A stretch of DNA of 64,000 bases from a virus: positions 62,001 to 126,000 of the IMG/VR virus record IMGVR_UViG_3300020477_000001, one strand, 5' to 3'. Position numbers and translations under genes: made by a program. The notes below the pieces were generated by a model. The model ran no database searches. It was not told the origin of the DNA and saw nothing but the letters and a program-made list of their open reading frames with translations. Position 1 is the first letter of the stretch. The number at the start of each line of letters is the position of its first letter. This document shows, piece by piece, positions 27,222 through 62,710 of this stretch.

Positions 27222-27824
27222 TTAATTGTTGTCAATTTCTTTCTTGTACTGCTGTAAGAAATTTTTAATATGATTTTCTAGGGACTCGTTAAGCCCTTCA
27301 CTGACAGTTTTCCATTGAACTTTGTAGTCAGAGTTCATAAACAGGTGAGGGTCGTTCCTTAACTCTTCTTCGTTTGCGCCTTTTAAAAATATTTTAAAAT
27401 TATCTTCATTAAGGTCATACCTACCTATGTAAACTAGCTTTCCTTTGAGTTCGTGCTTGAGCCAAGAAAGCTCGTCATGTTCATAATCGCAGTACCTTAT
27501 GTCGGTTATTACTGCAATTGTTTTAGGTGAATCAAATTCTTTTATTTCTTTTTCTATTCTAGAAATCCAGTATCTGCCTTCTGTCTCTTCCCTTTTCCTT
27601 TTCGCATGAGCCACGAGGGTGTTTCTGATTTTATTTTTATCTTCAATCGAGCAATTAGTTGGATCGATTCCGTATTTACTAACACAGTAATCCTTGCATT
27701 CTTCCTTTAGTTTATCAGCCAAACTAAACCTCTTGACTTCAAAACTTGTACTTGCAAGTCTCTTTAAAATGCTAAAAAAAGTATCTTTTCCTGCTCCAGC
27801 AACACCAGTAATTCCAAGTATCAT
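27222..27824 (-). CDS. deoxynucleoside monophosphate kinase
   Basis: P-loop kinase like T4 gp1, phosphorylating dNMPs for dNTP synthesis. Walker A GVAGAGKDT is at 7-15. The lid/Arg-rich segment is HAKRKREETEGRYWISRIEK, AVITDIRYCDYEHDE is the core strand with Asp-x-Arg, and the protein is 200 aa. The 3' end and neighbours show only small gaps, and its start overlaps the 27821 gene by 4 bp. It complements nrdAB, dCMP deaminase and dUTPase in the window. Confidence 0.88.
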   Translation of the reverse strand: MILGITGVAGAGKDTFFSILKRLASTSFEVKRFSLADKLKEECKDYCVSKYGIDPTNCSIEDKNKIRNTLVAHAKRKREETEGRYWISRIEKEIKEFDSPKTIAVITDIRYCDYEHDELSWLKHELKGKLVYIGRYDLNEDNFKIFLKGANEEELRNDPHLFMNSDYKVQWKTVSEGLNESLENHIKNFLQQYKKEIDNN

Positions 27825-28045
27825 TTAACTTCCCATTTGTATTTCATTAATTTTTCAAGTATCTTGTCCCTCTTTACCCTAGCGCTTTCTACATCATCAA
27901 CCCTTAAGCTTTTTCTAATTCTCTCGGAAGTCCCGTCGTCGTACTGGACCATAAAGTGAATCCACCAATACCTCCCGTTCCTCCAGATATGGTGGTTAAG
28001 GTTGGACTCATCTACCTTTACTGAACCTTTGAATCTTCTACTCAT
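27821..28045 (-). CDS. small Arm-type DNA-binding-like protein
   Basis: 74 residues with a three-strand-plus-helix look: NHHIWRNGRYWWIHFMVQYD, then RIRKSLRVDDVESARVKRDK. The pattern of aromatic beta strands followed by a Lys/Arg helix resembles the Arm/AP2-type DNA-binding domain of tyrosine integrases, but no catalytic domain follows, so it is not an integrase. It could be a small DNA-binding regulator. It is the first gene of the minus-strand operon after a terminator. Confidence 0.55.
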   Translation of the reverse strand: MSRRFKGSVKVDESNLNHHIWRNGRYWWIHFMVQYDDGTSERIRKSLRVDDVESARVKRDKILEKLMKYKWEVK

Positions 28046-28064: not shown

Positions 28065-28147
28065 TTGCATATCCTAACTTTCTTTAGGATAAATTAGATA
28101 CAAAACCCCCCGCGAAGGGGGGCTTGCATATCCAACTTTCTTCTAGG
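28065..28147. repeat. direct repeat flanking a terminator hairpin
   Basis: Two near-identical copies, GCATATCCTAACTTTCTTTA (starting about 28069) and GCATATCCAACTTTCTTCTA (starting about 28125), flank the C6-G6 hairpin at 28108-28124. On the minus strand the repeat places AAGAAAGTT(A)GGATATGC on both sides of the terminator. Confidence 0.6.
28103..28125 (-). terminator. rho-independent terminator (minus strand)
   Basis: Minus-strand GCCCCCCTTCGCGGGGGG, a 6-bp GC stem with a TTCGC loop, followed by TTTT. It separates the 28437 gene or the structured RNA from the 27821 operon. Confidence 0.75.
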
Positions 28148-28160
28148 GCTTTTTTTGTTA

Positions 28161-28433
28161 AGGTGTAAGCATCACCGATACGCATCGATAATATCGAAGT
28201 CATCTCCCATACAGGGTGAGAAACTGTGCTTAAAAACTCATTACAATGACTAACCACAACACGCCGGGGTATTGCGATGGGAATTACCCATCAGTTTTTT
28301 GTTAAAGCCGCCTTTCGAATGAAGCTGATGGCGCAGCTACCGCGATGGTCATTCTTAGGAAACCCTACCGTTTACTCTCGGCGGGCTAAAGGAGGTTCTG
28401 ACCCCTTGATGGCCGAAGGTATATGTTTTTTTA
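28161..28433 (+). ncRNA. candidate structured non-coding RNA
   Basis: No gene fits the 391-bp gap 28046-28436. This part holds many stable stems: TCGATAATATCGA, GATGGG-AATTA-CCCATC, and a three-way junction in which GAATGA pairs with TCATTC around AGCTG/CAGCT and ACC/GGT hairpins. A further AGCCGCC/GGCGGGCT stem joins distant parts. It begins at an AGGTGTAAGC motif and ends in a T7 run, so a plus-strand transcript is likeliest. CTAACCACAACAC at 28250-28262 resembles the dispersed GGAACTACAACAC motif. I do not recognise an Rfam family. Confidence 0.55.
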
Positions 28434-28436
28434 ATG

Positions 28437-28880
28437 TCAGTCAATATCATTTTCGTCTTCTTCCTCTTTTTCTTTTTTAGCTAAAGTATTCTTGAAATGA
28501 GAATACATAATTAAGAGGTTCTTAACGTCTTTTTCTTTTATGTCTGTTGATTGACAGTAATCAGAGTGGTCATTAATCATGTCACAAAATTCGTTTATCT
28601 CCCTAGCAATAGCCATACATAAAGTTTCATTTAACTCTACTGTCTGTTTATAAGATTCTATTCTTTTTTCAAGAACCCAAAAATCCCTACTCTCGTGATT
28701 TACTTTTTTAATTAATTTATATTCTTCTAAAGAATCCAAAGCACCCCTCACCACTGCGTCCCTCTCCTCGGTATCTTCCACAATAGGCTCCAGAATTTCC
28801 GAAGATTTTTTCATAGTAAACACAGCCTCGTTTTCCCTAAACCAAGAAAGAAGCTTGTCTGAGCAATCAGAAATATTCAT
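28437..28880 (-). CDS. putative winged-helix regulator, 147 aa
   Basis: The first 70 residues (CSDKLLSWFRENEAVFTMKK to DFWVLEKRI) look like a winged-helix: helices, then a helix ending SLEEYKLIKKVNHESRDFWV with a beta wing. The remainder is helical with an acidic tail (EKEEEDENDID). ATG 28880 is preferred over an in-frame codon at 28934 because a TTGACT-17-TATAGT promoter lies between them. It is divergent from the small HTH gene at 28966, a layout common for phage regulators. Confidence 0.65.
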   Translation of the reverse strand: MNISDCSDKLLSWFRENEAVFTMKKSSEILEPIVEDTEERDAVVRGALDSLEEYKLIKKVNHESRDFWVLEKRIESYKQTVELNETLCMAIAREINEFCDMINDHSDYCQSTDIKEKDVKNLLIMYSHFKNTLAKKEKEEEDENDID

Positions 28881-30607: not shown

Positions 30608-30721
30608 ATGCAATCCATTCTAACGCTTGCAATTATACTTTTCCCTTTTGCAATTTTATTTTTAACCGCATTTCTCATAATTGATTTATTCGTGGACTTG
30701 TTTAATGATTTGGGAAAGTAG
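30608..30721 (+). CDS. 37-aa single-pass membrane peptide
   Basis: ATG 30608 follows the lipoprotein stop by 7 bp. Almost the whole peptide is one hydrophobic helix (ILTLAIILFPFAILFLTAFL) with an acidic end (DLFVDLFNDLGK). The stop overlaps the 5' end of the tRNA-Arg gene. Confidence 0.5.
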   Translation: MQSILTLAIILFPFAILFLTAFLIIDLFVDLFNDLGK

Positions 30722-30788
30722 CTCAACTGGATAGAGCAACGGTCTTCTAAACCGTAGGTTCTGGGTTCAAGTCCCAGCTTTCCTGCCA
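30712..30788 (+). tRNA. tRNA-Arg (anticodon UCU)
   Basis: Cloverleaf with acceptor GGGAAAG/CTTTCCT, D-stem GCTC/GAGC, anticodon stem ACGGT/ACCGT around loop CTTCTAA, T-stem CTGGG/CCCAG with TTCAAGT, and an encoded CCA. UCU reads AGA/AGG, codons likely favoured in this AT-rich genome. Confidence 0.95.
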
Positions 30789-30795
30789 GACTTGC

Positions 30796-30870
30796 GGGCG
30801 GTTAACTCAGCGGTAGAGTGTCTCGTTTACACCGAGGTTGTCGGGGGTTCGAATCCCTCACCGCCTACCA
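30796..30870 (+). tRNA. tRNA-Val (anticodon UAC)
   Basis: Acceptor GGGCGGT/ACCGCCT, anticodon stem TCTCG/CGAGG with loop TTTACAC, T-arm GGGGG-TTCGAAT-CCCTC (one wobble pair), discriminator A and encoded CCA. It reads GUA/GUG. Only 7 bp separate it from the tRNA-Arg, so they are co-transcribed. Confidence 0.95.
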
Positions 30871-46129: not shown

Positions 46130-47638
46130 ATGAAAAAAAAATCTAAACTTCAAAAGGTTGAACAAGAAACTATTCCTGTTAAATACCGAATCTACCCAAA
46201 CCTTAAGCAACGCAAATACCTTGACAGATGCTTTCTTTCCAGCCGAATCGTATGGAACTGGCTGCTAGGAGTACAGAAAGATTATGACCGTGGTCTTACT
46301 GAATGGGTAAAAGAAAAGTATGCCAAAGAGCTACAGAAATTCTGCAAGAAAGAAGGCTTCGAATTAAGCAGTCCATTTGAGCACGAAAAAATAAAAGAAT
46401 TAAAAAAAGGAGAAGCGAAAAAATTTCACACGGAAGTCATTCGCCTCAAGAAGGAGGAAGTTTTCCCCTCTGTCTTAGGGATAGAACTCCTTAAAGCCAT
46501 TATTCCTAATGCAGAAGAAGACGAAATCAAGAAGATGATAGTCAACAAAAAGAATCCTTCCGCTTCTAACAAGACTATCAACATCATGGACTTAAAAAGG
46601 CAAGTAAAAAACCTTCGAGAAGATAAACCAATCTTAAACCAAGTCGCATCCCAAGGAATCCATCACGTACCGCTTAACCTAGCTAAAGCTTGGAAGGCGT
46701 GCTACGACAAGAACCGCCCAGATTCCGGTGAGCCTAAATTCAAGAACAAATTCGCGAAGCAGTCATTCACTTTTGACACAGCAAAGCTTCAAGGAAATAA
46801 GTTATTCCTCCCGCCTAAAAGCAAAAACATTTTCATTAAAACAAAAGTCCATCGAGAGATGGAGGGTGAGCAAAAAACAATTACTGTTACTAAAAGCAAA
46901 ACAGGAGAATACTACGCCTCAGTTAACTTTAGGCAAGATGTATTCTTCCCGAAGCCCAAAAGTTTTAGTAAATCGAGCACGGTTGGCATTGACCTAGGAA
47001 TTAAAGATGACTACATCATTATGTCTAACGACATGGGGTCAATCAAAAACCCAAAATTTTTCAAGAAGCATGAGCGCAAAATCGCAATGCTAAATCGAAA
47101 ATTATCGCGCTCCCAGCCGAATAGCAATTCACGCAACAAAGTTCTACACGAGCTTAACCGCGAGTACGAGAAGCTCTCTAAAGCAAGGGAAGATTTTCAG
47201 CATAAGGTAACACACCAGATCGTAACTAACCCAAACATCAAGGCGGTGGCTGTCGAGGACTTGAATGTGAAGGGCATGACAGCTAAGAACAAACCAAAGG
47301 AGGGCGAAAATGGCCACTACTTACCAAACAATCAGTGCGCCAAACGAGGACAAAACAAAGCCACTCTGGACGCTGGGTTTGGAAGAGTTAGGCAGATGCT
47401 TGACTACAAATGTAAGCGCAATGGCAAAACGTTTGGAAAAGTTGACAGGTTCTTTGCATCCTCCAAAACATGCAACAACTGCGGTCATATCAATAAAGAG
47501 CTCAAAGTTTCCGACCAGTACTGGACCTGCGAAAAATGTGGCGAGCATCACGAGAGGAACTTTAATGCGGCAAATAACGTGCGAGATGAATTTATACGCG
47601 CAAGCAAGCAGAAAAAGAAAACCAAGAACTCGAAATAA
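46130..47638 (+). CDS. TnpB/Cas12f-like RNA-guided protein, predicted nuclease-dead
   Basis: 502 aa, longer than a usual TnpB (about 400) and in the Cas12f range. The N-terminus YRIYPNLKQRKYLDRCFLSS is the OrfB/TnpB start, with an insert at about 60-150. GEPKFKNKFAKQSFTF marks the recognition-lobe end. RuvC-I is GIDLGIK (Asp288), RuvC-II is AVAVEDLNV (Glu376), and the zinc ribbon has Cys448, 451, 467 and 470. RuvC-III reads HERNFNAANN where the family has HDRDxNAAxN: Asn477 replaces the catalytic Asp, so cleavage is predicted lost while RNA and DNA binding may remain. No TnpA transposase is near. The structured RNA precedes it on the same transcript. Confidence 0.88.
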   Translation: MKKKSKLQKVEQETIPVKYRIYPNLKQRKYLDRCFLSSRIVWNWLLGVQKDYDRGLTEWVKEKYAKELQKFCKKEGFELSSPFEHEKIKELKKGEAKKFHTEVIRLKKEEVFPSVLGIELLKAIIPNAEEDEIKKMIVNKKNPSASNKTINIMDLKRQVKNLREDKPILNQVASQGIHHVPLNLAKAWKACYDKNRPDSGEPKFKNKFAKQSFTFDTAKLQGNKLFLPPKSKNIFIKTKVHREMEGEQKTITVTKSKTGEYYASVNFRQDVFFPKPKSFSKSSTVGIDLGIKDDYIIMSNDMGSIKNPKFFKKHERKIAMLNRKLSRSQPNSNSRNKVLHELNREYEKLSKAREDFQHKVTHQIVTNPNIKAVAVEDLNVKGMTAKNKPKEGENGHYLPNNQCAKRGQNKATLDAGFGRVRQMLDYKCKRNGKTFGKVDRFFASSKTCNNCGHINKELKVSDQYWTCEKCGEHHERNFNAANNVRDEFIRASKQKKKTKNSK

Positions 47639-50506: not shown

Positions 50507-51430
50507 ATGTACAATTTGTGCTGCATATCAAATTCATTAGCCAAAGAGGGTCACAAGTTTCAGACCATGACTTGGGCTAGGTTCTCCAAGTTACCCCGCG
50601 AAGAAGCTATTGCAATCGTTTCTGCTCGCACTCTTAACAATCTGAAAGTTACGCGCAAGATTCTTGAGCAGTGTGCAGAGCATGGCTGGGGCTATCGCGT
50701 TAGCTCTGCTTTATTTCCACTTCTTACTTACGATGTAGCAGAACTCAAAATTCAAGACTACCCAGACTGGATTGACATACAAGCTGCATTTGCAGACTGC
50801 AATATGTTCATCAATGACAATCGTATCCGCATCTCATGTCATCCAGATCAGTTCAATGTTCTTGCAAGCTTGGGTAAAGCGCAGGTAGAAAAGACTATCA
50901 AAGAACTCAATCATCATGGTTGGTTCATGGATATGCTTGGTGCTCCTCGCGACTATCGCGCACCCATCAACATTCATGTCAACAACACCAAAGGCGAGCC
51001 TTCAGAAATTGCTGACCGTTTTATGCTCAACCTTTACAAGTGCGACCAATCTGTACGCTCACGACTAGTCATAGAGAACGAAGACAAAGGCATCTGGACT
51101 CCAGCGTTACTTGTCGAGCATTTCACCACATTGCCCATTACTTACGACAACCTACACCACAAATGCTTACCCGATGGCCTCACAGAGGATGAAGCCTATC
51201 GCTTGTGCTATAACACATGGCAAGATAACGGTTACTTCAAACCACTGTTTCATTACTCAGAGTCTCACCCAGACAAAAACAATCCACGTAGCCATGCCGA
51301 CACACCCACCGAGATACCGCTGGACGGCGGACATTCTTTCCCTGTTGACTACGACATAGAACTCAAGTCAAAAGATGACGCCATTAAAGAGATACAAAGA
51401 TTAGAACTGAAGGGGTTAATAAATGGATAA
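50507..51430 (+). CDS. uvsE: UV DNA damage endonuclease
   Basis: Cuts 5' of UV lesions in a metal-dependent TIM-barrel. MYNLCCISNSLAKEGHKFQT, YRVSSALFPLLTYD, RISCHPDQFNVLAS, INIHVNNTKGE, RLVIENEDKGIWTPALL, ITYDNLHHKC and FHYSESHPDK carry the conserved His, Glu and Asp metal ligands of UvdE/UVDE. 307 aa, close to bacterial UvsE. Also ATG at 50503 in another frame, not used. It is more GC-rich than neighbours. The stop overlaps the HNH gene. Confidence 0.93.
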   Translation: MYNLCCISNSLAKEGHKFQTMTWARFSKLPREEAIAIVSARTLNNLKVTRKILEQCAEHGWGYRVSSALFPLLTYDVAELKIQDYPDWIDIQAAFADCNMFINDNRIRISCHPDQFNVLASLGKAQVEKTIKELNHHGWFMDMLGAPRDYRAPINIHVNNTKGEPSEIADRFMLNLYKCDQSVRSRLVIENEDKGIWTPALLVEHFTTLPITYDNLHHKCLPDGLTEDEAYRLCYNTWQDNGYFKPLFHYSESHPDKNNPRSHADTPTEIPLDGGHSFPVDYDIELKSKDDAIKEIQRLELKGLING

Positions 51431-52472: not shown

Positions 52473-52501
52473 TTGACTAAAGTTAAAAAACTCTCTATTA
52501 T
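52473..52501 (+). promoter_or_regulatory. sigma-70-type promoter for the amidohydrolase gene
   Basis: TTGACT, 17 bp AAAGTTAAAAAACTCTC, TATTAT; ATG 52509 follows after 7 bp. Confidence 0.75.
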
Positions 52502-52508
52502 ATTACCC

Positions 52509-53390
52509 ATGAAGAGAATTGATACTTATTTCGCAAAAGAGTACGAGGCAGACACACCCACTGCCTCTATGCGTAAGTTGCGCCCAGTGGCTGAAGCAGC
52601 TAGTGCTGCTGGTTACGCAAACATCTTGAAGACATCCTCCAGCGAAGGCGTTAGCGACAAGCTAAAAAAAATTCACAATGCAGATTACGTGGAAGCCTTC
52701 TCTAACGGTACTTATCCGCTCAGCGAAAGCAATGGATGGGGCTGGAGCAAAGAGATTAGGGACGGCGTTTTCAGAATTAACACAGGGCAGCTTGACGCTG
52801 CTAAAGCTGCGTTAAGCAACGGCATTGCAGCAAATGTAGCGCAGGGGTTTCACCATGCTGGAATCGAAAGAGGCTGCGGTTATTGTACCTTCAATGGGTT
52901 AGCACTAGTCGCTAATGAATACAAGACCAAGAAAGTATTCGTTTTAGACTGCGATGAGCATGGAGGCAATGGTACGGCTGAGTTTACCAACATACTGGAC
53001 AACTTATCGCAGGTAACCATCAACGGCTCTAATTTCGGAACCGAAGAGAACCCCCGCAGCCGATGCATTACTCTTCCTCGAATCACTAACCGATTTGAGC
53101 TTTACGAAGATGCACTGGAAGAAGGCTTCTCTATAATGGATAGGTTCGAGCCCGACTTGGTTATCTACCAAGCTGGTGCTGATCCTCACATTGACGATCC
53201 CTTGGGCTCTCTGGGTATGACAACCGAACAAATGTACAACAGAGACAAGAAAGTATTTACGAAGCTCAAAGCTTCAAATATACCGACAATGTTCGTACTG
53301 GCGGGGGGCTATCAAACCCCGATTGAGGAAAAACTTGTACCGCTGCACTTGAACACCTTCAAGGCTGCTCACGAAGTATACAACAATTAA
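52509..53390 (+). CDS. histone-deacetylase-family acetylpolyamine amidohydrolase
   Basis: Zinc amidohydrolase of the HDAC/AphA superfamily, likely removing acetyl groups from polyamines or proteins. GFHHAGIERGCGYCTFNGLA has the catalytic His-His pair, VFVLDCDEHGGNGTAEF has D-x-D-x-H-x-G-N-G-T zinc binding, LVIYQAGADPHIDDPLG has the second Asp, and MFVLAGGYQTP closes the active site. 293 aa from ATG 52509, downstream of its promoter. Bacterial acetylpolyamine amidohydrolases are a close match in size. Together with the SpeD-like gene it hints at polyamine control. Confidence 0.85.
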   Translation: MKRIDTYFAKEYEADTPTASMRKLRPVAEAASAAGYANILKTSSSEGVSDKLKKIHNADYVEAFSNGTYPLSESNGWGWSKEIRDGVFRINTGQLDAAKAALSNGIAANVAQGFHHAGIERGCGYCTFNGLALVANEYKTKKVFVLDCDEHGGNGTAEFTNILDNLSQVTINGSNFGTEENPRSRCITLPRITNRFELYEDALEEGFSIMDRFEPDLVIYQAGADPHIDDPLGSLGMTTEQMYNRDKKVFTKLKASNIPTMFVLAGGYQTPIEEKLVPLHLNTFKAAHEVYNN

Positions 53391-53435
53391 AGGAACAACA
53401 ACACAGCACCAAAGATACTATCTCCGTAGCATACT

Positions 53436-53846
53436 ATGAACATCAAAAGAGAAACAACAACAGCATGGGTAGTTTTCCCAGAATATACCCAATGGGAAAA
53501 CAAGGACAATAAAATGTTCTGGGATGAAGATTACGACCTAGAAGCTGCCGCAGATGCTGCCGTAAAACATTCATGGAAAAAGCCCATAATGACTAGAAAA
53601 TGGCCTCGGCCTGTCACTTTCGGTGACTTTGTGCTTGTTACCAATAGCAATTCAAGCGAGTGGTTTAAGATGATTCGCTGTAAAGGCGGATGTAATGGCT
53701 ATGAGTGGCAAGTCTCATCTTGGGAAGAGGTTTTTGGCGAAGAGGCGGCAGTTAGGAAAGACATGAAAGGATACCTTGAAGACGCTGCTAAAGTAAATGA
53801 CGCCCTAACTGAATTTGAGGAGAAACAATGCACAACGGAAAAGTAG
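53436..53846 (+). CDS. hypothetical protein, 136 aa
   Basis: Trp-rich (TAWVVFPEYTQWENKDNKMF; WFKMIRCKGGCNGYEWQVSS) with two strands and a C-terminal charged helix ending EEKQCTTEK. Not recognised. It follows the amidohydrolase after a gap carrying a GGAACAACAACAC motif. It overlaps the cytidylyltransferase by 19 bp. Confidence 0.5.
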   Translation: MNIKRETTTAWVVFPEYTQWENKDNKMFWDEDYDLEAAADAAVKHSWKKPIMTRKWPRPVTFGDFVLVTNSNSSEWFKMIRCKGGCNGYEWQVSSWEEVFGEEAAVRKDMKGYLEDAAKVNDALTEFEEKQCTTEK

Positions 53847-54262
53847 GATTTACTTGTAGCTGCTTTGACCTTTTACACGCTGGCCACTGCTTGATGCTGA
53901 AGGACTGCAAAGAGCAGTGCGACTGGCTTGTCGTTGGCCTCCAAACCGACCCCAGCGTCGATAGACCAGAGAAAAACAAACCAGTCCAGTCACTTGAAGA
54001 AAGAAAGATACAATTAGAAAGCATAAAGTACGTTGATCAAGTGCAAATATACGAAACAGAATCAGACCTAGTAAAACTGATTGAGGATGTCCATCCAGAC
54101 GTAAGGATACTCGGTAGCGATTATATAAATAAAAAATTCACTGGCGATCACCTAGACATTCCCGTATACTACCACGAAAGAAACCACGATTGGTCCACTA
54201 GCGATTTAAGAAAAAGAATCAAAGGGGAATGGCCTCACCATACAGACTATCTGGATGACTAA
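53828..54262 (+). CDS. glycerol-3-phosphate cytidylyltransferase-like
   Basis: TagD/GCT-type nucleotidyltransferase: GFTCSCFDLLHAGHCLMLKD contains H-A-G-H (17-20), WLVVGLQTDPSVDRPEKNKP carries the substrate loop, RILGSDYINKKFTGD and DWSTSDLRKRIKG the R-x-x-G-I-S-T-T/S-D-x2-R-K-R-like C-terminal motif. 144 aa. It would make CDP-glycerol or a similar CDP-alcohol for the CDP-glycerol-type transferase at 24723. AGGAGAAAC ribosome binding site. Confidence 0.85.
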   Translation: MHNGKVGFTCSCFDLLHAGHCLMLKDCKEQCDWLVVGLQTDPSVDRPEKNKPVQSLEERKIQLESIKYVDQVQIYETESDLVKLIEDVHPDVRILGSDYINKKFTGDHLDIPVYYHERNHDWSTSDLRKRIKGEWPHHTDYLDD

Positions 54263-54305
54263 CCAGCGTACTGCAACACAATAAAAAAACGCGATTAATA
54301 AAATA

Positions 54306-54494
54306 ATGAAAGCCTTTCCTTTAGTTCTTTTAATTTTATTTATTTTTATTTCTGGCCCTTTAGTTACCATTTGGATGCTTAATACTCTATTTTCTGTAGA
54401 TATTCCATACACTTTGGAAACTTGGGCTGCTGCTTTTGTATTAGGAGCCGCGCTTTACGGTCCTAACGCAAGGAAAGAACTACGCGATAAATGA
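54306..54494 (+). CDS. two-helix membrane protein, 62 aa
   Basis: Two hydrophobic segments (FPLVLLILFIFISGPLVTIW; ETWAAAFVLGAALYG) and a basic end (NARKELRDK). ATG 54306 lies 44 bp after a stop, beyond a GTACTGCAACAC motif. Unknown; small envelope proteins like this are common in phages. Confidence 0.55.
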   Translation: MKAFPLVLLILFIFISGPLVTIWMLNTLFSVDIPYTLETWAAAFVLGAALYGPNARKELRDK

Positions 54495-54769
54495 AGAGAG
54501 TAGATATACAAAATCATATAAATGAACACTACCCAGAAATGGATGAAGATATTCTTTTAGCTGATGGATTCGAGAAAGCTTTTTTGGGGATTGCTAATAG
54601 TTATTGCTCCGCGCCCAGAGCTTGCTATGATGCTGATAAATGTATAGAAATCCTAGAAAAGAGAGACGGAATGAGTCATGAGGAAGCTATTGAATTTTTT
54701 AATTTTAATGTTTCTTCTGCTTATGTCGGGGAGTTTACGCCAGCATTTATGAAATTGGCGCATAGTTGA
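54491..54769 (+). CDS. hypothetical protein, 92 aa
   Basis: Acidic start (NEHYPEMDEDILLADGFEKA) with Cys (CSAPRACYDADKC) that may form a disulfide or metal site, then EEAIEFFNFNVSSAYVG, as in small helical phage proteins. Overlaps its neighbours by 4 bp at the 5' end. Not recognised. Confidence 0.5.
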   Translation: MKRVDIQNHINEHYPEMDEDILLADGFEKAFLGIANSYCSAPRACYDADKCIEILEKRDGMSHEEAIEFFNFNVSSAYVGEFTPAFMKLAHS

Positions 54770-54775
54770 TATTTC

Positions 54776-54803
54776 TTGACACTGTTTTTGTTTATGTTAT
54801 TTT
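54776..54803 (+). promoter_or_regulatory. sigma-70-type promoter for 54811
   Basis: TTGACA, 16 bp, TATTTT; the ATG follows 7 bp later. Confidence 0.6.
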
Positions 54804-54810
54804 TTCGGCC

Positions 54811-55011
54811 ATGAGAATGGCCGACTTCGTGAAAGGGCATAATAAGCTGAAAATTAGCAGTTTTCAGTACCTTTGTGCGTTTCAAGCTGGCCACTTAGAT
54901 AAAGACAAGGATGATTCTTATTGTCCTTATACATTTCCGCCGCAAATAGAAGCATATTTTCAAGGTAAAAAAAATAAAAACAAAAAAATTATTAACAAAT
55001 TCTTGACTTAA
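54811..55011 (+). CDS. hypothetical basic protein, 66 aa
   Basis: ATG 54811 directly follows the promoter; the longer in-frame reading from 54766 overlaps it. Positive C-terminal tail (KKNKNKKIINKFLT). LCAFQAGHLDKDKDDSYCPY holds two Cys and His. Unknown. Confidence 0.5.
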   Translation: MRMADFVKGHNKLKISSFQYLCAFQAGHLDKDKDDSYCPYTFPPQIEAYFQGKKNKNKKIINKFLT

Positions 55012-55031
55012 TTAAAAATGAATGGAATAGT
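55003..55031 (+). promoter_or_regulatory. sigma-70-type promoter for the sigma factor gene
   Basis: TTGACT, 17 bp with AATTAAAAATG, AATAGT; overlaps the end of the preceding gene and lies 8 bp before ATG 55040. Confidence 0.55.
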
Positions 55032-55039
55032 GGGACTCC

Positions 55040-55993
55040 ATGAGTAGCTACCTAGAAGAAAAGTCGTCGGAAGATTTATATTTTAATGAAATTTCAAGAT
55101 ACGATTTAATCTCCTCGGATCGAGAAAAAGAGTTAGCAAAAAAAATAAAAAAAGGCGGAAGAACTGGCAAAAAAGCCCTTGAAGAATTAGTTAATGCTAA
55201 TTTAAGATTAGTCGTAAAGATAGCTGGAGAGTTCAAAGGCTTTGGGTTGGATTCTGGCGATTTAATCAACGAGGGAAACCTCGGATTGATGAGGGCCGCT
55301 GAAAAGTATGATGGCCGCGAAGGCGTTAAGTTTTCAACATATTCCGCGTATTGGATAAGGCAAAGTATCTACAGAGCCCTCTCGAATAAGAGCAGAACAA
55401 TTAGGCTTCCCGTTCATGTTTGCGCTGCTAATTCTAAAATAATTAAATTTATTTCAAAATACCAAGAATCCAACAATGGAAAAAAGCCTTCAGTTAAGCA
55501 GATAGCGAAAGCCACCAACGCAACAGAAAGATTGGTGTCGGATGTAATAAATGGTGGAGTGACCAACGTAAACTCTCTAGACAGAGAAATCGGAACTGAT
55601 GACAGCGGCTCTAAAGAGACCCTAGGGAACATAATTGAGGACCAAAACGCTGAATCCCCCGACCAAATCTGGAAAAACGTGGAAGATGTTAGTATTCTAT
55701 TAAAATTGATACAAAAATTAAATAATAGAGAAAGATACATAATTTGCAATAGATATGGAATAGGAACCAAGACCCCAAAAACTCTAGAAGAAATTGGGGA
55801 ACACTTCGGCGTTACTAGGGAAAGAATAAGGCAGGTACAAAAAGTAGCAATGATGAAGTTAAAAAACTACATGGATAAGTATTATAGATACAAGCCAGAG
55901 GTTGAGGATCATTATGTTGAAGGCCGAAGATTTGTAGCAAGGGTTAAAAGAGAAGAAAAAGCCAGAGAAAAGAAAAAAAAGGTTAAAAAATAG
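55040..55993 (+). CDS. sigma-70 factor (regions 2, 3 and 4)
   Basis: 317 aa, like a primary/RpoS-type sigma factor without region 1.1. Region 1.2: SSEDLYFNEISRYDLISSDR. Region 2: LVNANLRLVVKIAGEFKGFG, LINEGNLGLMRAAEKYD, VKFSTYSAYWIRQSIYRAL. Region 3: SKIIKFISKYQESNNGKKPS. Region 4: LEEIGEHFGVTRERIRQVQK. Virulent phages usually encode short sigma factors, so a near full-length one is notable. It could redirect host polymerase to the TTGAC-class promoters that fill this region, including its own. Confidence 0.93.
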   Translation: MSSYLEEKSSEDLYFNEISRYDLISSDREKELAKKIKKGGRTGKKALEELVNANLRLVVKIAGEFKGFGLDSGDLINEGNLGLMRAAEKYDGREGVKFSTYSAYWIRQSIYRALSNKSRTIRLPVHVCAANSKIIKFISKYQESNNGKKPSVKQIAKATNATERLVSDVINGGVTNVNSLDREIGTDDSGSKETLGNIIEDQNAESPDQIWKNVEDVSILLKLIQKLNNRERYIICNRYGIGTKTPKTLEEIGEHFGVTRERIRQVQKVAMMKLKNYMDKYYRYKPEVEDHYVEGRRFVARVKREEKAREKKKKVKK

Positions 55994-56001
55994 TGTAATT
56001 T
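55992..56001 (+). promoter_or_regulatory. AGTGTAATTT motif after the sigma factor gene
   Basis: Overlaps the sigma factor stop; about 80 bp upstream of ATG 56083, the longest distance among the class. Confidence 0.4.
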
Positions 56002-56082
56002 TTTTAAGAACTGCTACACTGGTTCAATAATAGAATAACAATCAAACTAAATATGTAAACACAACAACAATAAAGGGGGCGC

Positions 56083-56265
56083 ATGAAAGATTCAGAATTA
56101 TTATTAAGGGAGGTTTCTTTTGAGTTATTAGGCAAGTTGAACGATACTTACGAAAGTGATTCCGAATATGCGGCGGGGCAAAGGTTTGCATACCTTAAAT
56201 CAATTTTAATCATTAAAAAGAAACTATCTGAAACTAGGAATAATAATGCCAAGACACCCAATTGA
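56083..56265 (+). CDS. hypothetical helical protein, 60 aa
   Basis: Starts at ATG 56083 after GGGGGCGC. Helix-rich (SELLLREVSFELLGKLNDTY; AYLKSILIIKKKLSETRNN). It overlaps the next gene by 20 bp. Not recognised. Confidence 0.5.
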   Translation: MKDSELLLREVSFELLGKLNDTYESDSEYAAGQRFAYLKSILIIKKKLSETRNNNAKTPN

Positions 56266-56815
56266 TGATGAGGTTTACACGTTCGACGATATAGGCAAAA
56301 ATGCGCCAAGGTTGAGCTACAATCGTAAAATTAAAAAGATCGTCTTCGAGAACTACGAAGCTTTCTGGCTTTTGCTTCACGCCACAAAACACCCAGATAT
56401 TATTAATGGAGTTATCTTTGAAACAGATGACAACTTCAAGGCTCATTATATAAAACAAACAGGGGATAAAGACTTAAATAATCTTTATATAAATAAATTT
56501 ATTTTAAAAGAGATGATGGAGGCTATGAACATAAGCGACCAGCATGATACCTTCCAAGGGTCATTCCAAGATAAGAATATGCACCTCTGGATGACCAACC
56601 AAAATGAATCCGAGAACATGGAGGATGCCAAGGTTCTCAGCAGTAAGTCTCAGTCAGAGCGGCAGAAGAGATTTGATCAAAAGACCAAGGAGAGAGAGCA
56701 ACAAGGAGAAGAAAGAATGAACGCACAAGAATTCCTTGAGTGGTCATCGGAGCATGTAGAAGAAGACTTAAAAAAGAGAATAGATGCAGGAGACACAAAT
56801 TGGAAATTCTTATAA
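56246..56815 (+). CDS. hypothetical protein, 189 aa
   Basis: An ordered N-terminal half (IDDEVYTFDDIGKNAPRLSY; AFWLLLHATKHPDIINGVIF) and a charged, Gln/Lys/Arg-rich second half (SQSERQKRFDQKTKEREQQG) ending DAGDTNWKFL. The layout recalls phage structural-assembly or DNA-packaging cofactors. The stop overlaps the next ATG by one base (TAATG). Confidence 0.5.
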   Translation: MPRHPIDDEVYTFDDIGKNAPRLSYNRKIKKIVFENYEAFWLLLHATKHPDIINGVIFETDDNFKAHYIKQTGDKDLNNLYINKFILKEMMEAMNISDQHDTFQGSFQDKNMHLWMTNQNESENMEDAKVLSSKSQSERQKRFDQKTKEREQQGEERMNAQEFLEWSSEHVEEDLKKRIDAGDTNWKFL

Positions 56816-56985
56816 TGCAAAAGCCAGACAACAAAATGAAGCGCTGGCTAAACTCTCAGACCAAAGATTTAAAAAAAATTAATTTTAATTCTCTGGTAAA
56901 TTCATTCAAAGACAAGTTTAAGGTCAGTATCAACGATGCTCGTATGTACGTGATGCAATGGGACCACGACAGAAACAAGCATTAA
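56815..56985 (+). CDS. hypothetical basic protein, 56 aa
   Basis: ATG 56815 overlaps the previous stop. Lys-rich (MKRWLNSQTKDLKKI) with a C-terminal helix NDARMYVMQWDHDRNKH. Overlapping ORF frames give no better alternative. Confidence 0.5.
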   Translation: MQKPDNKMKRWLNSQTKDLKKINFNSLVNSFKDKFKVSINDARMYVMQWDHDRNKH

Positions 56986-57002
56986 ACCGCCGTATTAGAT
57001 GC

Positions 57003-57031
57003 TTGACATATATTAAAAAACTCCTTATCAT
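57003..57031 (+). promoter_or_regulatory. sigma-70-type promoter for 57073
   Basis: TTGACA, 17 bp TATATTAAAAAACTCCT, TATCAT. Confidence 0.7.
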
Positions 57032-57072
57032 ATATCTACAGACATACCTTAAGATATATATAGGAACAAACA

Positions 57073-57147
57073 ATGGACTTAATATTTGCGGCAATAGTGA
57101 TATACTTCTTCTGCTTTGCTTTTAAGCAGCTAGTCAAGGATTTGTAA
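57073..57147 (+). CDS. 24-aa hydrophobic peptide
   Basis: ATG 57073 is followed by MDLIFAAIVIYFFCFAF, nearly a single membrane helix, ending KQLVKDL. Preceded by AGGAACAAACA and a promoter at 57003, so translation is plausible. Confidence 0.45.
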   Translation: MDLIFAAIVIYFFCFAFKQLVKDL

Positions 57148-57516
57148 ATCGAGGGGGAGCTACAACACAACAAATTGTGAAAACAATAGCCCTGTTTTTA
57201 CGAGCTTTTTACACATTTTTTAAAACACTCACAGTGAACTACAACACTATAAGCTAGTATGGAACTAATAAACACAATAAAGCATTTCAAAAGAATAAAA
57301 TAAAATATTGAAGTGTATTAAAATGGGTTAATGTGGGGTGCATATTATATATATATCCGTCAAGCATTAAATTTAAAAACTATTCACATATTTATTAACA
57401 CTGAAACCACGTCAAGCAAAAACAACAAAAAACAATAAAAAACTTATTAATATTTTCTAAGTCAAGAAAAAACAAACAAAAACTTAAAAAATTATTATTG
57501 ACTATATAGCAAATAT
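57148..57516. other. AT-rich gene-free stretch with array-like motifs
   Basis: No supported gene. It holds two copies of the array-end motif (GGAGCTACAACAC at 57156-57168, TGAACTACAACAC at 57235-57247) and long A-rich tracts. GTCAAGCATT occurs here (about 57358) and again near 63264. No clear hairpin or terminator is seen. Confidence 0.5.
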
Positions 57517-57633
57517 ATGGGCTTAAAACCAAGAAAAGAAGGAGAAGCAAAAAGAATAGCAACATACATAATATTAATCATATATGGAATTGTTATACTT
57601 ATAGTTTATCTATTAAATAAATTATTTTCTTGA
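57517..57633 (+). CDS. 38-aa membrane peptide
   Basis: ATG 57517, KPRKEGEAKRIATYIILII then YGIVILIVYLLNKLFS: a charged start and a single transmembrane helix. The stop TGA is at 57631-57633. Confidence 0.45.
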   Translation: MGLKPRKEGEAKRIATYIILIIYGIVILIVYLLNKLFS

Positions 57634-57682
57634 CACAGATAAATGGAATTAAAACACAATAAAGAATAGAGGGTTTTTTTTG

Positions 57683-57711
57683 TTGACTTAACTTAAATAA
57701 ATTAGTATAAT
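57683..57711 (+). promoter_or_regulatory. near-consensus sigma-70 promoter, no gene follows
   Basis: TTGACT, 17 bp TAACTTAAATAAATTAG, TATAAT: the best consensus match in the window. The transcript would start near GTTTCCAAAGGGG and contains no ORF. Confidence 0.75.
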
Positions 57712-57752
57712 GTTTCCAAAGGGGCTTCATCACAACAAAGGTAAGATTTTTC

Positions 57753-57781
57753 TTGACTTAAGTTAAATAATATATTAAAAT
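57753..57781 (+). promoter_or_regulatory. second tandem promoter, similar to 57683
   Basis: TTGACT, 17 bp TAAGTTAAATAATATAT, TAAAAT, followed by TTTTCCAAAGGGA, almost the same start as the promoter 70 bp upstream. Confidence 0.7.
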
Positions 57782-57809
57782 TTTCCAAAGGGATTTTTTT
57801 TATTTTTTT

Positions 57810-57838
57810 TAATTCTTATAATAGGAATTATTTTTTTC
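57810..57838 (+). terminator. weak rho-independent terminator
   Basis: AATTC-TTATAATAG-GAATT followed by ATTTTTTT. It would end the short transcript from 57753. Confidence 0.5.
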
Positions 57839-58101
57839 TTGACAAGTAAATAATGTTTCTTATTCTTATTATGCTTAAGGAGCTACACCACGTTATTAAC
57901 ACCAACGTACACGGAACTACACCACCCATTTGCCGACGATTGATTTTTAAGGAACTAAAGCACGGATTCGAACTCACGTCTGGAACTACGACACCCATTT
58001 ACCAAGGAGCCGCAACACGTCGAATGCAGTGGTATATTTGTGAACGCAATCGAGCCAAATAATAGGAACTAAATACACGAGGTCGGGAGTTCAGAAAAGC
58101 C

Positions 58102-58130
58102 TTGACTCATCTTAAAAAACTCTTCATAAT
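58102..58130 (+). promoter_or_regulatory. sigma-70-type promoter of the CRISPR-like array
   Basis: TTGACT, 17 bp CATCTTAAAAAACTCTT, CATAAT. The predicted start near AGTCCCCAGA gives a CCCCAG leader like that of the structured RNA at 45955. Confidence 0.75.
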
Positions 58131-58225
58131 AGTCCCCAGATTAAGAAACTGATCTTTGACATAGGCACTGCAACACACGAGGCCAAAGACATTCAAGGGA
58201 CTACAACACAACATTATGGTATTCC

Positions 58226-58777
58226 TTAGCAATTTAAGGGACTGCAACACAGTAAGGCGATTATAACATCGCGCTCGACGGTTCGCACTGGTACTAATTT
58301 AAGGGACTGCAACACTGCAACCATGCTAACTAACGTGGTTACACAGCTTCGCACTGGTAGCAATTTAAGGGACTGCAACACTGTTACACACATCGCTGCG
58401 ATGAAGCGGCGGCTTCGCACTGGTACAGATTTTAGGGACTGCAACACCGTATCAGAACGAGATATCGTCCCGCCTTGGGCTTCGCACTGGTAGCAATTTA
58501 AGGGACTGCAACACTTAGTCGAACCGCATAACGTCGAGTGTCTGCTTCGCACTGATAGCAATTTAAGGGACTGCAACACAATGAGGCAGATAATGGAAGG
58601 GGTAGCTAGCTTCGCACTGATAGCAATTTAAGGGACTGCAACACAAAACTGCACCAACAGGAAGCGGAATCACAGTTTTGCACTGGTACTAATTTAAGGG
58701 ACTGCAACACAAGGGGTGACGTAGTGGAAGCGACCACATAAGCTTCGCACTGGTACAGATTTTAGGGACAACAACAC
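58226..58777 (+). CRISPR. CRISPR-like array, 36-bp repeats and eight spacers
   Basis: A 5'-truncated repeat at 58226-58250 is followed by eight repeats at 58281 (35 bp), 58346, 58412, 58479, 58544, 58609, 58675 and 58742 (36 bp each). Repeats begin GCTTCGCACTGGTAGC and end TTTAAGGGACTGCAACAC. Spacers are unique and 30, 30, 30, 31, 29, 29, 30 and 31 bp. The repeat ends are constant but the centre varies (TAGCAATTTA, TACTAATTTA, TACAGATTTT), with the variants alternating along the array. The last repeat changes to GGGACAACAACAC. No cas1 or cas2 is in the window. Confidence 0.85.
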
Positions 58778-58798
58778 AGTAAAGAACCCTACGTACAT

Positions 58799-58897
58799 AT
58801 TTGTGAATGATTTTTGGACAAATAAAGGAACAACAACACTGAATCTCTAGGCGATATTTGTGAATGATTTTAAGGCAAATAAAGGGAACTACAACAC
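58799..58897 (+). repeat. second repeat family, two copies with hairpin
   Basis: Two 41-42-bp copies, 58799-58839 and 58856-58897, of a unit starting ATTTGTGAATGATTTTTG and ending AAATAAAGGAACAACAACAC. They are separated by 16 bp (58840-58855). ATTTG pairs with CAAAT to form a hairpin in front of the common 13-nt end. They follow the array directly. Confidence 0.7.
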
Positions 58898-59217
58898 TCT
58901 GTTAAAGTCCGTCCAACACGAGGCGGCGAGAATTGATGCCGATCAAAATACTTAATTATTGATTGACTAATTTTTTTGTCGCTCATTTGTGAACGTCAAA
59001 GAGGCAAATAATATAGGGGAATTAAATTAGATATTTTAGATTAATAGGGACTAATTAAACACGATGCTCAATCCCAATATTGTTAATTTATGAATGATTT
59101 TTTGCCAAATAAGGGTTATTTAACATAAGGGAATTTCGTATACAAGAAAAATGTTGCCCCGGAGAAAACACCCCCTTATAAGAAATATATTAAAGGAACT
59201 AAAACACAACAAAAGTG

Positions 59218-59340
59218 ATGAAGAATTTAATTTTAATTATTATTATTTTAATTATTACTGGTTGTTATACAGCCAAGGAAAGAGTAATGCCTCTTGGTCC
59301 CCATGATGATAGCTATGGTAAGAATTGGGTAAGTAATTAA
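59218..59340 (+). CDS. small lipoprotein, 40 aa
   Basis: MKNLILIIIILIITGC carries a lipobox (IITGC), so lipidation and export are predicted. The mature peptide is 25 residues, Gly/Pro/Asp-rich, ending KNWVSN. ATG 59218 is preceded by an AGGAACTAAAACAC motif. It is the only gene inside the repeat region. Confidence 0.55.
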   Translation: MKNLILIIIILIITGCYTAKERVMPLGPHDDSYGKNWVSN

Positions 59341-59449
59341 GGAACTGTAACACCAAATCCAGCATGGCGTTTAGATATTTTGGGAACTAAAACACGGGTA
59401 TAGCTCATTTGAAATAGGAACTAGAACACATGTGGTGCGCCATTATATT

Positions 59450-59659
59450 TGTGAACGCGATTTTTGCAAATAAAGGAACTACAACACCAGCGGTTTCAGA
59501 AGCTATCTGTGAACGCGATTTTTGCAAATAAAGGAACTACAACACCCGTCATGGAATTATAACACTAACTCCTCAGATGGAACTACAACACGTTGAGATA
59601 CTGCTTTCGCGGGAGCTATCTGTGAACACAATTTTTGCAAATATAGGGAACTACAACAC
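59450..59659 (+). repeat. hairpin repeat family, three further copies
   Basis: Units with TGTGAACGCGATTTTTGCAA followed by ATAAAGGAACTACAACAC begin near 59450 and 59508, and a variant with ACACAATTTTTGCAAATA near 59622. The inter-unit sequences differ. The first copy is complete with ATTTG/CAAAT; the later two begin CTGTGAAC. Confidence 0.65.
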
Positions 59660-59822
59660 GACGGGAACTCACGACGGAGAGTTAATCAAGGAACAACAAC
59701 ACGAAAACTTTTTCTGTATTCTTGATCTTGTAATGGAACTACAACACTCAAGGGCGGCTCATTTTAATTTAAAATAAAAAAGGGAACTACGACACTTGCT
59801 ATTATTAATTGTATCTTTAATT

Positions 59823-59832
59823 AGTGTAATTA
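59823..59832 (+). promoter_or_regulatory. AGTGTAATTA motif upstream of 59891
   Basis: Perfect copy 20 bp before a TTGACT promoter; both classes stand before the same gene. Confidence 0.45.
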
Positions 59833-59852
59833 TTATTGTCTATAAGTTTTTA

Positions 59853-59881
59853 TTGACTGTAATTAAATTGCTCTATATAAA
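59853..59881 (+). promoter_or_regulatory. sigma-70-type promoter for 59891
   Basis: TTGACT, 17 bp, TATAAA, followed by AAGGATACACATG. Confidence 0.65.
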
Positions 59882-59890
59882 AGGATACAC

Positions 59891-60127
59891 ATGAAAAAAA
59901 AGAAACTATCCCCGCAAGCCCAAATATACGAGAAGGCTTGGAACGACGTAGTGTCCGAAATGAGTGACCATAAAAGAAATATTATTATTAATAATTTTAC
60001 TGTTGTCAGTGGTCATCATGTATATGAGAATAAATATGATCAAAGGGTAGCAGATGAAGCAGCTAAGGAAGCCCGTATACGAGGTGACCAACAAATAGAA
60101 GCACTGTTTCCAACTGGCAAGTATTAA
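59891..60127 (+). CDS. hypothetical protein, 78 aa
   Basis: Start supported by the AAGGA ribosome binding site and promoter. Basic N-terminus (KKKKLSPQAQIYEKAWNDVV) and a helix YDQRVADEAAKEARIRGDQQ. Not recognised. The stop is followed by a GTACTACAACAC motif. Confidence 0.55.
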   Translation: MKKKKLSPQAQIYEKAWNDVVSEMSDHKRNIIINNFTVVSGHHVYENKYDQRVADEAAKEARIRGDQQIEALFPTGKY

Positions 60128-60242
60128 AGGTACTACAACACGAGCGGGCACTACAGTGGTAGGAACAACAACACAGTCCCCTGCTATAATCTATGGAACT
60201 AAAGCACGAGTGCATATAGTAGAAAAAAATAAAAAAAAATAA

Positions 60243-60271
60243 TTGACTTAAATTAAAAAAAACTTCATACT
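60243..60271 (+). promoter_or_regulatory. sigma-70-type promoter for 60279
   Basis: TTGACT, 17 bp TAAATTAAAAAAAACTT, CATACT. Confidence 0.6.
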
Positions 60272-60278
60272 GGTCGCC

Positions 60279-60521
60279 ATGAAGAGAAAAGGTTCTGGCA
60301 AAACAAAGGGAGCGACCAGCTTCGTACAAGTGACACTGGGAGAGCTCAACCGCGTACTCAAAGAGGGTGCAGTGGTTGTGGTCAGTCGCAAGTACGCCGA
60401 GCAACTGGAGCTCGATTCTAAGCCCATGTATTCTAATTACAAGAATCTTGAGGCCCACTCAAACCAAATCGATGTCAAGATCGATGAACCGGAGGACACA
60501 ATTGATTTCAAAGTAGAATAA
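60279..60521 (+). CDS. hypothetical protein, 80 aa
   Basis: ATG 60279 lies 7 bp after the promoter. FVQVTLGELNRVLKEGAVVV then VSRKYAEQLELDSKPMYSNY is a strand-helix-strand unit. The N-terminus is basic (KRKGSGKTKGA) and the end is acidic. It may be a small DNA-binding or assembly factor. Codons are more GC-rich than in the AT-rich flanks. Confidence 0.55.
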   Translation: MKRKGSGKTKGATSFVQVTLGELNRVLKEGAVVVVSRKYAEQLELDSKPMYSNYKNLEAHSNQIDVKIDEPEDTIDFKVE

Positions 60522-60559
60522 TGGAATAACAACACGAACGAAAAGACTTCATAAAAGTC

Positions 60560-60588
60560 TTGACCTAACTTAAAAAACTATATAATAT
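60560..60588 (+). promoter_or_regulatory. sigma-70-type promoter for the RuvB-like gene
   Basis: TTGACC, 17 bp TAACTTAAAAAACTATA, TAATAT (TATAAT also readable at 15 bp). Confidence 0.75.
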
Positions 60589-60594
60589 ATCCCT

Positions 60595-61554
60595 ATGACG
60601 AACGAACGAACTATCCCCAACCCTTTCGAGGGTATCATTGGCCAAAAGAAGGCTAAGAAACAGATAAACTTTTACAGGCGAGGCTACAATGCCACAGGTA
60701 TTCTTCCTCACCTATTGTTTGTTGCTCCGAAAGGATGCGGCAAGACCATGCTGGCTAAGGCTGTTAAAGACACTCTTATGTCCAGAGAGAACCCAGAGAA
60801 AGCTAAGAAGTTTCTGGAGATTAACTGCTCTACGCTTCGCAACGTCAAGCAGTTCTTTAATCAAATCATGATTCCTCATGTTCAACACGAGGAAGTCACA
60901 ATCTTATTCGATGAATCCTCTGAGATTCCTCACGATGTTTCGATGGCACTGCTTACGTGCTTAAACCCGAACAAGCATAATCGTAACGAGTTCTCTTACG
61001 AGGACTATACGGTAGAGATTGACTTCTCGCGACACACTTTCATGTTCGCCACCACCGAGGTGCAGACCATGTTCCACGCTCTTATTGACCGATGCAAGCG
61101 CATCGATCTACAGGAGTACTCTTTAAAGCAACTCGGACAGATTCTCAAGGTTAACCTTGAGGGTATCGAGTTCGAGGAGGGTCTGATGCCCGACATCGCC
61201 TCTACTCTTAGGGGCAATGCTCGTAAAGCAGTTCAGACTGCCAACGACATTTCCTCGTACATGGCGGCGGAGGAGCGAGGTTACTTCACTCGCAAGGACT
61301 GGAACCTGTTCAAAGATGAGCTAGGAATCGAGCCACTCGGATTGTCTCCGATTGAGATTCAACTCTTAGAGATTCTCAACGACAAACCAGAGTGCAGCTT
61401 GACCTACCTGTCAGCCAAGACTGGCATGACCAAGGCGGCAGTACAGAGGGACATTGAGATGTACCTTCTCAAGAACGATCTAATGGAGATCGGCACTGGC
61501 GGACGCAAGATCACCAACAATGGACGTGAGACCTTGGAGGTCATCAATGGATAA
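60595..61554 (+). CDS. RuvB-like AAA+ ATPase
   Basis: 319 aa. AAA+ core: FEGIIGQKKAKKQINFYRRG, Walker A APKGCGKT (44-51), Walker B ILFDESSEI (103-111), sensor 1 TFMFATTEV, Arg finger region ALIDRCKRIDLQEYS, and sensor 2 TLRGNARKAVQTANDI, which is the RuvB-type R-G-x-x-R block. The C-terminal winged helix (LTYLSAKTGMTKAAVQRDIE) follows. RuvB normally drives Holliday junction migration with RuvA; no RuvA is visible. Walker B has DESS instead of DEIH, so the phage version may work alone, like a clamp-loader or helicase. Confidence 0.85.
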   Translation: MTNERTIPNPFEGIIGQKKAKKQINFYRRGYNATGILPHLLFVAPKGCGKTMLAKAVKDTLMSRENPEKAKKFLEINCSTLRNVKQFFNQIMIPHVQHEEVTILFDESSEIPHDVSMALLTCLNPNKHNRNEFSYEDYTVEIDFSRHTFMFATTEVQTMFHALIDRCKRIDLQEYSLKQLGQILKVNLEGIEFEEGLMPDIASTLRGNARKAVQTANDISSYMAAEERGYFTRKDWNLFKDELGIEPLGLSPIEIQLLEILNDKPECSLTYLSAKTGMTKAAVQRDIEMYLLKNDLMEIGTGGRKITNNGRETLEVING

Positions 61555-61885
61555 AGTTACTGCGGAACAGCTTAAGAGAGAGCCATCGGCTCCCTTCGAT
61601 AGAATCGTTCGTCATATGGAGGATTTCCTCGCTGCGCGGATGTGCAGCGAGGAGTCCTTCAACCAAGTGAAGCGTAACACCTACAAGTACACAGACTGCG
61701 GCGCTTGGATTGACGAGGACGAGAACGGTATTACTGTAGGAAGTATTGTCGAAGGAGCAGACTACGGAACCTCGACTTACGTTTTAATCTACCCATTCAA
61801 GATTCAAGAATTCTGGGATGCATTGAATGAAGTAGAGATGGAGGCTAAACAAATCTGGGAGGAGGTCAATGGAGAAGAACAATGA
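61547..61885 (+). CDS. hypothetical protein, 112 aa
   Basis: ATG 61547 overlaps the RuvB-like stop (ATGGATAA). A helical start (KREPSAPFDRIVRHMEDFLA), then a beta section ITVGSIVEGADYGTSTYVLI and a helix FWDALNEVEMEAKQIWEEVN. Family not recognised. A partner of the ATPase by context. It overlaps the next gene by 17 bp. Confidence 0.5.
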   Translation: MDKVTAEQLKREPSAPFDRIVRHMEDFLAARMCSEESFNQVKRNTYKYTDCGAWIDEDENGITVGSIVEGADYGTSTYVLIYPFKIQEFWDALNEVEMEAKQIWEEVNGEEQ

Positions 61886-62216
61886 CATAGACTTCGCAAT
61901 ATTAAACCAAAAAAGATATGAAAAATATAAAGGAATTAATTTAAGTACTTGTTTCTTAGTACATGAATCAGAAAAGGGACACATGAAGGACTGGACTTGT
62001 ATCACGCGGAATGATGACTTCTTTAGAGTAAACATTATCGCAGGTATGGTCTCAATGATGAGAGGAGAAACAGAGTACGACATTACGGGACCAGCAACAA
62101 ATATACTAAACCCCGTACTAGGATTACAGAACAAAGAAGATTTGGAAAAATGTAAATTCTCTGATATAAAGAAGTTTATGAAATGGAGAATCAATAAAGA
62201 TAACTATATAGAATAA
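61869..62216 (+). CDS. hypothetical protein, 115 aa
   Basis: Alpha/beta protein, KGINLSTCFLVHESEKGHMK and DWTCITRNDDFFRVNIIAGM are hydrophobic strands. Not recognised. It continues the RuvB-like operon with a 17-bp overlap at the start. Confidence 0.5.
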   Translation: MEKNNDIDFAILNQKRYEKYKGINLSTCFLVHESEKGHMKDWTCITRNDDFFRVNIIAGMVSMMRGETEYDITGPATNILNPVLGLQNKEDLEKCKFSDIKKFMKWRINKDNYIE

Positions 62217-62220
62217 GATT

Positions 62221-62406
62221 ATGAATAAGAAAGATACAAATACATATGTTGTTAAGATGACCGAAACCAGCAACGGAGTGGTCGTAGACTCAGTGCAGCA
62301 ACTCGTACAAGTGCTCGGTGTAGATCGTGAGAAGTATAAGACTATCGACAAGCGCGACTTCACCAGCAAGCATCTCAATACTGTTACTAAATTCACAGCG
62401 CGTTAA
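62221..62406 (+). CDS. hypothetical protein, 61 aa
   Basis: Strand-rich (NTYVVKMTETSNGVVVDSVQ) with a basic C-terminal half (KYKTIDKRDFTSKHLNTVTK). Starts 4 bp after a stop. The final codons overlap the next gene by one base. Unknown. Confidence 0.5.
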   Translation: MNKKDTNTYVVKMTETSNGVVVDSVQQLVQVLGVDREKYKTIDKRDFTSKHLNTVTKFTAR

Positions 62407-62633: not shown

Positions 62634-62710
62634 GAACTACAACACAACATAATATTCGCGACTCGCAAGGGAACTACAACACGTTCAAGGACTTGGTATA
62701 AAAATTTCCT

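Follow-up and report, generated by a model that had tools for sequence, protein, structure and literature searches.

A previously undescribed pseudoknotted RNA family with a predicted promoter and terminator of its own in large uncultivated phages

The gap at 28161-28433 of the window (the whole 64,000-nt stretch of DNA analysed here, taken from a 158 kb phage record) overlaps the gene for a previously undescribed structured RNA, predicted to run for about 310 nt on the minus strand, which we recovered in about 30 uncultivated phage records with the same gene neighbourhood. We regard it as nearly certain that this is a stand-alone structured RNA gene of the minus strand. All members of the family so far come from a single group of large uncultivated phages. 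The first-pass annotation had proposed an unrecognised structured RNA with a multi-helix junction in this gap and had considered an independent RNA as one reading; both proposals agree with the lack of an Rfam match, the conservation in relatives, the strong covariation and the dedicated promoter and terminator predicted from the aligned loci. The parts of the RNA and its immediate surroundings are the following:

28437-28880, minus strand: p28437, upstream gene for a predicted winged-helix protein (co-occurrence with the RNA, fold model)
28439-28444, minus strand: predicted -35 box, TTGACT (TTGAC at this site in 22 of 25 loci)
28416-28421, minus strand: predicted -10 box, TACCTT, at a spacing of 17 nt from the -35 box
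28100-28409, minus strand: predicted noncoding RNA of ~310 nt (promoter and terminator positions, covariation, G-U count of 79:6)
28388-28407, minus strand: 5' hairpin (alignment of the 5' domain)
28360-28387, minus strand: second hairpin, AGCCC-GCCG ... CGG-GGGUU (compensatory CG/UA pairs at two positions)
28293-28300, minus strand: 5' strand of pseudoknot 1, AAAAACU, whose partner is AGUUU in the P7 loop
28275-28293, minus strand: hairpin P8 (double changes in 6 of 6 pairs, 99.4% paired)
28251-28275, minus strand: conserved single-stranded core GCAAUACCCCGGCGUGUUGUGGUUA (alignments), the source of a resemblance to the end of an array repeat
28198-28251, minus strand: three-helix domain P5-P7, which includes the conserved loop GAGUUUUUAAGCACAGUUUCUC (covariation)
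28185-28197, minus strand: hairpin P4 (double changes in 3 of 3 pairs)
28162-28176, minus strand: hairpin P3 (double changes in 3 of 4 pairs), whose loop pairs with 28148-28151 as pseudoknot 2
28124-28147, minus strand: repeat copy R, its outer part being the 3' strand of helix P1
28106-28122, minus strand: GC-rich terminator hairpin (a hairpin in the aligned homologues too), followed by UUUUGU at 28105-28100
28065-28088, minus strand: repeat copy L, just past the terminator and similar to copy R

Taken alone, the window would not lead one to a structured RNA, because single-sequence folding yields unremarkable z-scores against dinucleotide shuffles (-0.73 and -0.47 for the two strands) and no Rfam 15 family, including GOLLD, ROOL and OLE, matches the element at its gathering threshold; permissive Rfam scans of this region and of two homologues returned sub-threshold, chance-level matches only. 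Only comparison between relatives makes the structure visible. The first relatives were reached by a search with a nearby dCMP deaminase, and the set was widened to about 30 by pattern and protein scans. In the loci reached first, the gap is 72-88% identical over about 100 nt, as against roughly 30-45% for the flanking proteins; across the whole set, in which the RNA is an estimated 310-380 nt long, its core retains 72-90% identity and the flanking proteins about 30%. Of 24 large records, 13 have the RNA, each in a single copy. No homologue was found in cultured phages (blastn and tblastn) or plasmids (blastn), and two pattern scans of GTDB genomes gave no credible one; five Chamaesiphon matches from the GTDB scanning fell within an unrelated conserved segment and were judged to be chance. 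Our covariance model R1 matches the window at 28125-28300 on the minus strand (E 2.8e-27, with this sequence itself in the training set), and two members found later by another pattern, outside the model, match it at 1e-34 to 1e-36 and share the promoter.

A minus-strand alignment of 26 members yielded 32 base pairs in seven helices, two of which are pseudoknots; these pairs are formed in 96.5% of the alignment cells, and 24 of the 32 show compensatory (double) changes, the covariation expected of a stand-alone structured RNA. The covariation score is 0.595, compared with 0.248 +/- 0.013 for shuffled and 0.09-0.13 for slid controls, the shuffled control being no strict probability because alignment and helices were picked on the same sequences. 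Among the individual helices, P5 has double changes in 6 of 7 pairs and is 97.8% paired, P7 is 100% paired, and pseudoknot 1 has double changes in 3 of 5 pairs at 94.6% pairing; the loop pairing of pseudoknot 2 is GCUU/AAGC in the window and CCC/GGG in most homologues. Helix P1 is backed separately by complementarity within loci (score of 7.2 for a locus's own partner versus 5.8 +/- 0.2 permuted), and the two 5' hairpins by compensatory changes. Overall, the aligned sequences predict an RNA of at least nine helices, two of them pseudoknots, arranged around a conserved single-stranded core. A long-range pairing of AGCCGCC with GGCGGGCT, suggested earlier, is not seen in the homologues; GGCGGGCT is part of the conserved local hairpin at 28360-28387.

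The same alignment indicates the strand. On the covarying helices, 79 wobble cells read as G-U if the RNA is that of the minus strand and 6 if it is that of the plus strand (these being A-C on the minus); in an earlier count, made over the pairs that were predicted on both strands, the figures were 66 and 13. This asymmetry places the functional RNA on the minus strand of the window. The covariation that the first-pass annotation had proposed to look for in relatives is strong, whereas the strand it points to, in keeping with the promoter and terminator, is the opposite of the one assumed there. Immediately before the RNA's 5' end on the minus strand, 22 of 25 loci carry TTGAC, where shuffled sequence would give 1.4; it occurs once on the opposite strand and never in a comparable plus-side zone. 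A generic promoter score for the upstream zone is only modestly raised (8.8 versus 8.0 shuffled) and -10 boxes are often poor across loci, the clear signal being the positioned TTGAC box; the stretch TTGACT-N4-TTAAAAAA is also similar to a promoter motif repeated in this phage (families D4/D5). The consensus sequence and its conservation point to a dedicated promoter of the sigma70 type, that is a host-type one. At the other end, a GC-rich hairpin followed on the minus strand by a U-rich stretch visible in the sequences themselves (in L068, for instance, GUCUUUUU) constitutes an intrinsic-type terminator, and the transcript is predicted to extend from about 28409 to about 28100. The 28161-28433 interval originally delimited omits the RNA's 3' end and terminator (28100-28160) and takes in about 24 nt of the promoter. 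What had been read as a start at AGGTGTAAGC, a late-type motif, is hairpin P3 with its pseudoknot loop (28162-28176), and the T7 run taken as the end belongs to the spacer of the minus-strand promoter.

The gap had been described as lying between divergent operons; both of its neighbours (27821-28045 and 28437-28880) are in fact minus-strand genes, and gene direction diverges some 500 bp further right, at 28.9 kb. Further along are two adjacent tRNA genes, tRNA-Arg (TCT) and tRNA-Val (TAC), at 30712-30870 on the plus strand, immediately ahead of dut. Elsewhere the window encodes a phage tmRNA (1676-2080, minus; predicted tag peptide ANNNVDMAPSVAEADAILAKHGWAEEAAVAA), a UvdE homologue (UV endonuclease; 50507-51430, plus; Pfam PF03851, E 1e-34) and a protein with a histone-deacetylase-like domain (52473-53390, plus; Pfam PF00850, E 9e-32).

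As to function, we lean, by a modest degree, towards a stand-alone RNA gene of about 310 nt whose product is a trans-acting, stable RNA or ribonucleoprotein made early and binding protein, with p28437 as the first candidate. Transcription would proceed from the minus strand under the host-type sigma70 promoter and stop at the intrinsic-type terminator; the product would then act in trans, early in infection, as a stable RNA or RNP, and would bind a protein of the phage or of the host. The word "early" is owed solely to the sigma70-type promoter. For the protein, the adjacent winged-helix gene product p28437 would be the first to consider: its family is present in all 13 RNA-bearing and none of the 11 RNA-less records among the 24 large ones, and its fold model (pLDDT 87.7) shows a winged helix plus two additional helices, for which PDB matches are weak and generic (best E 0.008). 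The co-occurrence may reflect shared ancestry, as the two genes adjoin in most records, and action through protein binding with p28437 as the first candidate is a tentative proposal that we hold at below even chances.

The terminator is flanked by the direct repeats R and L, each of about 24 nt, which change together from locus to locus (window and 24 other loci): R and L of the same locus have a similarity of 13.6, compared with 7.5 across loci, and in 22 of 25 loci no R from elsewhere matches L better than the R beside it does. Copy L was considered as an alternative partner in P1, which was not supported, R alone apparently being needed; the repeats were also considered as a phage-wide promoter, and the whole genome has two copies, both at the RNA locus. 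A more ambitious version of the trans-acting account, to which we give a small chance, is a new phage RNA machine in which the pseudoknotted RNA with its unpaired core and its own winged-helix protein would form an RNP acting early on host or phage (or a new ribozyme), the matched, fast-changing terminator repeats serving as its recognition part.

A cis-acting element belonging to the neighbouring operon (3' UTR, attenuator or riboswitch) would suit the arrangement at most loci, where the gene on the 5' side (p28437 or dut) shares the strand of the RNA and stops where the RNA begins, so that cotranscription with it is possible, and where in many cases the next gene beyond the terminator is also on the RNA's strand. 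However, an opposite-strand gene follows the terminator in L020, L044, L056, L064, L132, L134 and L176, leaving these seven loci without the regulated downstream gene in the same transcript that marks a riboswitch or cis-leader. In L176 opposite-strand genes flank both sides, which argues that the RNA is a stand-alone gene, and the promoter is nonetheless retained there (TTGACT-N17-TATTTT). With a promoter of its own, and following p28437 in some loci and the unrelated dut in others, the RNA is unlikely to be such an element. A self-cleaving or RNA-processing ribozyme with the unpaired core as its active site is likewise unlikely, if anything slightly more so: the long conserved unpaired stretches, the pseudoknots and the similar sequences R and L on either side of the terminator would fit one, whereas no Rfam ribozyme matches and no cleavage site is predictable. 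Less probable again is a role at the DNA level, for instance as a replication origin, in which the structure would be incidental. The site is close to the switch in gene direction and has a hairpin between two similar direct repeats, yet the 79:6 wobble asymmetry requires selection on an RNA strand, and GC skew across the window has no clear switch at the RNA, the change in AT skew tracking gene direction.

The first-pass annotation had also raised a second scaffold RNA for an effector of this phage. The effector gene (46130-47638, plus) encodes a TnpB/Cas12u-like protein of 502 aa with Cas12f1-like TNB and OrfB_IS605 domains and Cas12u4 as its best PADLOC match. Its third RuvC motif is HERNFNAANN; that of TnpB is usually D-R-D, so catalysis may be altered. 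A CRISPR-like array at 58215-58800 (plus) consists of ~36-nt repeats at ~65-nt spacing ending in GGGACTGCAACAC, and scattered single repeat copies, along with many solitary GGAACTACAACAC, occur from 53384 to 62682 (plus). As claimed, CTAACCACAACAC is present (28250-28262) and resembles the end of the array repeat, but it is the complement of the conserved core and is also found in array-less genomes. An 11-position pairing between GUGUUGUGGUU of the minus strand and the repeat end AACTACAACAC is conceivable, and this complementarity made a tracrRNA reading look promising at first; we dropped it on the distribution of effector and repeat in the relatives. Among the 25 other RNA-bearing records, some of which are fragments, an effector homologue occurs in one (at 32% identity) and the array repeat GGRACTRCAACAC in none, and RNA-bearing records of 104, 114, 136, 162 and 178 kb have neither. 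The one homologue, in L157 (record G015), is a second TnpB-like protein whose matched frame contains a TGA; its record has the RNA and lacks the array repeats. With the complementary segment moreover kept in effector-less genomes or swapped for a local hairpin (L022, L027, L021, L007), a scaffold or tracrRNA role beside this effector and array is extremely improbable.

Few large structured RNAs are known from phages, and their roles have yet to be established. To these the present family adds one with a defined strand, boundaries, predicted promoter and terminator, a pseudoknotted structure and a candidate partner, which makes its transcription, structure and binding directly testable. It also illustrates that a region without a single-sequence fold signal can hold very strong structure, given relatives and the right strand. 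Compared with known systems, the RNA resembles tracrRNA and omegaRNA in being a structured RNA of a phage with a TnpB/Cas12u-like gene and in its short complementarity to an array repeat; it differs in being conserved across records lacking both effector and repeat. OLE RNA is likewise large and ornate, has long conserved unpaired stretches and works with proteins; the RNA described here has no Rfam match. GOLLD and ROOL are large, phage-encoded, pseudoknotted noncoding RNAs of unknown function (PMC12286853), and the present RNA is like them in these respects, a likeness of kind and not of membership. Many GOLLD members exceed 800 nt, against about 310-380 nt here; the present RNA lies outside any tRNA island, the two tRNAs being about 2.3 kb away; and ROOL has no identified protein partner, while a protein family co-occurs with this RNA. 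By this analogy, our best guess is a trans-acting early RNA or RNP of the GOLLD/ROOL kind.
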